Assembly (NCBI GenBank): GCA_937935075.1
Contig: CALGYB010000114.1
Location: 1-43,982, forward strand
DNA: 43,982 nucleotides
Direction of reading: 5' to 3'
Source of the DNA: an uncultured Roseiflexus sp.
Lineage (GTDB): Bacteria > Chloroflexota > Chloroflexia > Chloroflexales > Roseiflexaceae
Each line of letters begins with the position of its first letter. The stretch's first letter is position 1. The position numbers and the translations under genes were made by a program. Below, one piece after another: positions 43,156 through 43,750 of the stretch. Below the pieces are notes generated by a model. It was not told where the DNA came from. It saw only the letters and a list, made by a program, of their open reading frames with translations, and ran no database searches.

Positions 43156-43221
43156 CTAGAGCCTGTTATGTACTTTCGAGCATAACGGTAATGAACCGCT
43201 TCAGCCACGTGGACCTTGCCG

Positions 43222-43264
43222 CCCCCCCTTTCCCCCCCCCCCCGCATGCGGGGGGGAAGGGGGG
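43222..43264. repeat. C/G-run hairpin 1 within the IS remnant
   Basis: Runs of C separated by TTT, a GCATGC centre, then runs of G separated by AA. It lies between the GYDGHQ and GKVHVA blocks of the dead transposase. G-quadruplex formation is also possible. Confidence 0.85.
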
Positions 43265-43298
43265 GACGTTGATGCCCGTCATAGCCGGCGCGCGCTGC

Positions 43299-43333
43299 GC
43301 CCCCCTGCCCCCCCGCAGGGGGGGCAGGGGGGG
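43299..43333. repeat. C/G-run hairpin 2 within the IS remnant
   Basis: C-runs split by TG, centre GCA, and G-runs split by CA. It lies between the VHDLR and GYDGHQ blocks. Confidence 0.85.
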
Positions 43334-43493
43334 CACGCGCAGATCATGGACGAGCGTTGCAACGACCCCGGCCTTCAGCCAGCGCTGCGTTTGCTGATAG
43401 ACGGTGTACCACGGCGGCGGAGCGTTGGGCATCATGCGCCAAGGCGCCCCCGTGCGATGCGCTGAGCCTGCCGAAGCGCGGACGATGCAATCG

Positions 43494-43531
43494 CCCCCCC
43501 TGCCCCCCCCGTAGGGGGGGAAAGGGGGGGG
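43494..43531. repeat. C/G-run hairpin 3 within the IS remnant
   Basis: C-runs split by TG, centre GTA, and G-runs split by AAA. It lies between the SLR and GAPWRMMPN blocks. A CTGAGCCTGCCGAAGCG repeat follows on its left at 43462-43478. Confidence 0.85.
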
Positions 43532-43750
43532 CGCAGCGAGTAGTCGCGCTGCGGGGCGTCTTCGGTCATGAAGGTCAGGGAGGGAGCGCGGCGCCTGAGC
43601 CGGTCGAAGCGACGAAGGCCCGCTCCTCGTCGCTCACATCGCTGGGATAGGGTTTACGTGTCATGCTGAAATCATACCACGTGTATCTCTGAAGTGCATA
43701 ACAGGCTCTAGGGGCTCATACGTTCAACGTTCACACCTGCCCACCCGCAA

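Follow-up and report, generated by a model that had tools for sequence, protein, structure and literature searches.

Near the right-hand end of the window (the whole stretch of 43,982 nucleotides that was analysed), terminal inverted repeats within positions 43157-43711 accompany three strong hairpins of the C/G-run type and two repeats of the CTTCG type. The question is whether this arrangement is one dead IS5 copy, degraded where it stands and colonised by repeats here only, as the preliminary description supposed, or a representative of something more widespread. Taken as a whole, the evidence is best and probably explained by a multicopy, MITE-like derivative of an IS5-type element, which has undergone invasion by two kinds of small repeat and a shuffling of its parts at hairpin joints. 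The features of the locus are as follows.

43157..43158: flanking TA of the left end, the target, in a YTAR context
43159..43708, 550 bp, minus strand being the transposase sense: the whole MITE-like element, its ends set by aligning many copies
43159..43180, plus strand: left terminal inverted repeat, on the transposase C-terminal side
43220..43268: hairpin H1, replacing about 10 bp (Arg-Lys-Gly region); fold z -3.2; copy C124b (L218) is uninterrupted here
43269..43299, minus strand: block 1, about amino acids 118-128
43300..43334: hairpin H2, interpreted as H2a joined to H2b with the block between them (amino acids 97-113) lost; fold z -5.9
43335..43456, minus strand: block 3, about amino acids 48-88
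43457..43480: 24-bp small repeat, a clean insertion by comparison with copy C104, end ambiguity 3 bp; the site is uninterrupted in C124b
43492..43533: hairpin H3, replacing about 14 bp; fold z -4.1; C124b and C115 are uninterrupted here
43534..43588, minus strand: block 4, amino acids 20-37
43589..43611: 23-bp small repeat, a clean, frame-shifting insertion, end ambiguity 4 bp
43612..43664, minus strand: transposase N-terminus, amino acids 1-19, including the start codon
43687..43708, plus strand: right terminal inverted repeat, on the transposase N-terminal side
43709..43710: flanking TA of the right end

The ancestry of the element is clear. Its blocks, read on the minus strand, align in order with intact 268-amino-acid transposases from genomes of the same order, in keeping with the earlier proposal of IS5-type blocks in family order. 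An intact relative checked by domain search carries DUF4096 (PF13340) together with DDE_Tnp_1 (PF01609), the combination of an IS5-type transposase, and PF13340 matches were also found inside copies of the element. The terminal repeats have survived, as had been noticed: the inverted arms at 43156-43180 and 43687-43711 are 25 nt long and 88% complementary, and, as in IS5-type elements, they are accompanied by a short TA-containing target. Relatives of the IS are present in other taxa, according to a contig scan; within this assembly, a draft of 220 contigs, no intact transposase of the element's type was found. The element thus derives from an IS5-type element with a DUF4096 plus DDE transposase, whose gene has been destroyed and whose ends have been kept.

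Other repeats lie close by. Tandem repeats of the GAGAACTGAGAACC and CTCTCACC types flank the element on both sides (43118-43145 and approximately 43740-43870), and GAGAACTGAGAACC, the repeat at 43118-43145, has many matches in all six genomes of the genus. The final 128 bases of the window (43855-43982) are also found, 99% identical, where contigs C95 and C43 end, possibly as a further repeat or as an assembly overlap.

The idea of a lone dead IS draws on the destruction of the transposase gene and the lack of an intact copy, but it has to face dozens of copies with identical hairpin positions and differing flanks, and is highly improbable. The window element matches many places in the genome, with hairpins identical there in kind and position, and the element ends have 132 matches in the genome against none for a control pattern. 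The fetched loci have 84 outward flanks that differ from one another, of which 79 carry YTA, and they include 19 complete copies, which range from 254 to 878 bp apart from one early copy of 1163 bp. These matches, ends and flanks together identify an amplified, MITE-like family of which the window copy is one member. The family is short, non-coding and multicopy, has the inverted ends of its parent IS, and no intact ORF was found in it. The remaining five genomes of the genus yielded short, hairpin-like matches at most.

The loaded element, with its repeats inside it, occupies many different TA targets. It is from this multiplicity of targets that we infer its transposition, with an IS5-type transposase presumably acting in trans. 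No syntenic empty site could be recovered, and the target duplication was not seen at an empty site. Genome G003 was considered as the source of one for the window copy, since it has the left-flank gene with no element within reach; right-hand synteny is lost there, and it therefore falls short of a clean empty site. At 8698-8830 the window holds another MITE-like repeat (ATAGAGCGACCAACT...AGTTGATCGCTCT), about 133 bp in length. It has a long central palindrome around a CTTCGACAGGCTCAG core shared with the element, and similar copies occur in many sampled contigs of the genome.

The three C/G-run hairpins of the preliminary description are present at about 43220-43268, 43300-43334 and 43492-43533, and each folds better than all 200 of 200 shuffles (z -3.2 to -5.9). 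The pattern CCCCCC-N(0-30)-GGGGGG has 17 matches in the window, all inside the element, where 0.03 would be expected. Matches to microRNA, snoRNA and small-RNA models of Rfam were all sub-threshold and are taken as chance. The absence of the hairpins from the intact relatives and from copy C104 rules out that they are part of the intact IS, the finding that would have undone the earlier account. Uninterrupted sequence is available from C124b at H1, H2a and H3 and from C104 at H2b; read by eye, the hairpins replace approximately 10, 22, 14 and 6 bp at H1, H2a, H3 and H2b, respectively. The C/G-run hairpins thus took the place of roughly 6-22 bp at each of four sites before the family was amplified. 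At H3 they were not the first arrivals: C115 lacks H3 although it already carries the small repeat next to that site, which indicates that the small repeat preceded the hairpin there.

Where the hairpins came from is less certain. Genome comparisons used a 563-kb sample plus targeted regions, and in this sample 18 hairpins lie inside copies of the element and five outside, the latter with other loops. On this sample, hairpins of this type are therefore not common repeats of the genome, contrary to one part of the earlier suggestion that common GC-rich repeats enter genes or replace parts of them; the other part, that the hairpins replace short stretches of the gene, is upheld. Their confinement to the element within the sample, the fact that they replace sequence rather than add to it, and a CCCCC run already at H2b in the uninterrupted copy would all suit growth in place, with template switching building on short stretches of the transposase gene that were rich in G and C. 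Such growth does not readily give nearly one hairpin sequence at four sites, and palindromes with the same GCATGC loop occur in related genomes outside any such IS; growth in place is rather unlikely, and the hairpins may instead come from a repeat like these palindromes.

Once inside the element, the hairpins mark the places at which it has been rearranged. Some copies have the full block order k-1-2-3-4, and many are shortened or rearranged, the types being k-2, k-3, k-4, 1-3 (the type of the window copy), 1-4, 2-4, tandem 1-1 or 2-2, and inverted joins. At the H2 position, copies C117, C71, C180 and C176 keep block 2 between two hairpins. A hairpin stands at the joint in 52 of the 58 non-canonical block joins, a count that takes in joins inherited from a common ancestor as well as copies truncated where a contig ends; since the copies share ancestry, neither joins nor sites are all independent events. 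The six exceptional joins include that of the hairpin-free C104, where block 1 was unrecognised. Hairpins are thus the usual joints between rearranged blocks, and they may have acted as such in block deletion, duplication and inversion, through hairpin-hairpin recombination or replication slippage. The hairpin junctions of the window copy, previously ascribed to events at this locus, recur across the family, one being a later hairpin-to-hairpin deletion, so that they are not private to this locus.

Hairpins can also mislead a short-read assembly, and many contigs of this draft end inside copies, so that the differing block orders could mostly be artefacts. This is improbable, given that the 19 complete copies lie within contigs and have unique flanks, that eight of them are just 254-366 bp long, and that the short forms recur at unrelated places. 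In two loci (L031 and L040, on contigs C92 and C115) the element takes head-to-head inverted forms joined via hairpin or repeat sequence, which could be due either to template switching at a palindrome or to an artefact of assembly.

The second kind of invader is the small repeat, whose own hairpin is CTTCGACNNGCTCAG. The two CTTCG-type repeats pointed out in the preliminary description are at 43462-43476 and 43595-43609 (0.00 expected). Alignment against C175 and C104 gives a clean insertion of a unit with a CTTCGRCNNGCTCAG core, with no loss of target, at 11 sites in the transposase gene. The unit is 23-24 bp long, the insert reaching 46-48 bp at sites that hold two stacked or nested units, and its junctions have an end ambiguity of 0-4 bp. 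The unit at 43589-43611 is present in the window, C124b and C115 and absent from C175 and C104; the extra bases reported near 43591 are thus a clean insertion, as was thought, of 23 bp rather than about 27. Nesting is seen at one site, where C117 carries a single 24-bp unit and where, in C56 and C124b, that unit has itself received a second. Copies also differ in their load: C104 is free of both hairpins and small repeats, C124b combines a single hairpin with many small repeats, and C175 keeps the C-terminal half of the gene and has three hairpins. Filled and empty copies therefore record the entry of two unrelated small repeats into the transposase gene during the history of the family, the CTTCGRCNNGCTCAG-core repeats as clean 23-24-bp units, some of them stacked or nested.

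The small repeat is not restricted to the element. Allowing one mismatch at most, the GCGCTGAGCNNGYCGAAGC form occurs 119 times in the genome (0 for the control), and several units outside the element are located in long ORFs. In three host genes the insertion is clean and in frame, and the orthologues in related genomes are uninterrupted: an exact 24-bp gap is seen in four of five orthologues of a GH94 gene, in all five of a membrane-protein gene (the protein has a weak, sub-cutoff PMT_2 match), and in both of the orthologues of a DNA methylase gene that span the site. The expectation that a repeat of this kind would interrupt other genes is thereby borne out, as is the entry of the CTTCG-type repeats into genes by clean insertion. 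Units are also present in a mutL linker and near the starts of a purQ-like and a CCA-enzyme-like gene, where alignments are too variable to establish a clean insertion. Outside the element there is a longer form of the repeat with 12-bp arms that are 89% complementary, compared with 66% for arms taken from different copies, indicating that the stem is kept though the sequence changes. A 19-bp form (at most one mismatch) occurs 255 times here and is found in three other genomes of the genus, being absent from G001 and G002. Tandem 24-bp units, each adding eight residues, occur in ORFs at L244 (contig C102, 67-109) and L257 (contig C52, approximately 1016-1058). A text search for the repeat core sequences gave no match among the papers covered.

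How the 24-bp unit spreads may be approached from its length and its ends. The constant length points to a defined unit, and the end ambiguity to a copying process. Slippage during local replication, or gene conversion, could be started by short matches to repeats elsewhere and would need no dedicated mobile unit; this would be in line with the 0-4 bp ambiguity at the junctions and with the several targets that already held part of the repeat, such as GAAGCG. It accounts less well for a length that hardly varies (23-24 bp at 11 sites), for nested copies and for exact 24-bp insertions in three host genes, and is a serious if doubtful candidate. Most likely, the unit is mobile as a small element that forms a hairpin and has nearly fixed ends, although the 23-bp unit at one site and the slight ambiguity at the ends would also allow copying instead of transposition. 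The full proposal, in which the 24-bp stem-loop repeat is a mobile unit in its own right, entering transposase and host genes cleanly and for the most part in frame, and the C/G hairpins are the recombination joints by which a single IS has become a family of modular MITEs, is put forward tentatively, with somewhat less than even confidence.

Several known systems resemble parts of this one. IS5-family-derived MITEs likewise have terminal inverted repeats, a TA-type target, many copies and no intact transposase gene, but the present element carries invading palindromes, and its interior is modular and rearranged at hairpins. Palindromes that lie in frame within genes have been described before (PMC3733652, PMC10969869), and so have very small dispersed repeats that may be mobile (PMC2884548, PMC3116915). 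In the case of the Rickettsia palindromic elements (RPE), palindromic repeats have entered protein genes without breaking the frame (PMC3733652, PMC10969869), and their length is about 150 bp (PMC10969869). The present unit, at 23-24 bp, falls far short of an RPE, for which that length and a conserved peptide are the criteria; its sequence is unrelated by inspection, and it is accordingly not filed as an RPE but only likened to one in how it works. The small dispersed repeats (SDR) of cyanobacteria, described as about 20 bp and possibly mobile (PMC2884548; source Elhai et al. 2008), belong to a different bacterial group, and the likeness is to that description only. REP sequences and REPINs are small stem-loop repeats of high copy number, sometimes inside ORFs and associated with RAYT transposases (PMC3733652, PMC3116915). 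The conserved core of the 24-bp unit lies instead in the loop, and neither the GTAG nor the CGTC tag, which marks one end in the two large REP superfamilies, is present in the 24-bp units listed. The 24-bp repeat thus works like the RPE, SDR and REP repeats already known, and the hairpin-jointed MITE family is the less expected part.

The interest of the locus lies in this family and in the clean record of before and after that it offers. To our knowledge, how very small bacterial palindromes such as REP, RPE and SDR enter genes is an open matter, and before/after pairs are usually missing. Here a multicopy IS serves as a 'recording tape': one genome holds eleven insertion sites in filled and empty versions, with units of near-constant size and nested events, as well as insertions in ordinary genes that have uninterrupted orthologues. 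Dozens of repeat-invaded copies and clean 24-bp insertions thereby provide a record of small-repeat entry into genes, and the family offers a tangible example of a transposable element whose internal parts appear to be shuffled under the influence of GC hairpins as the driving agent.
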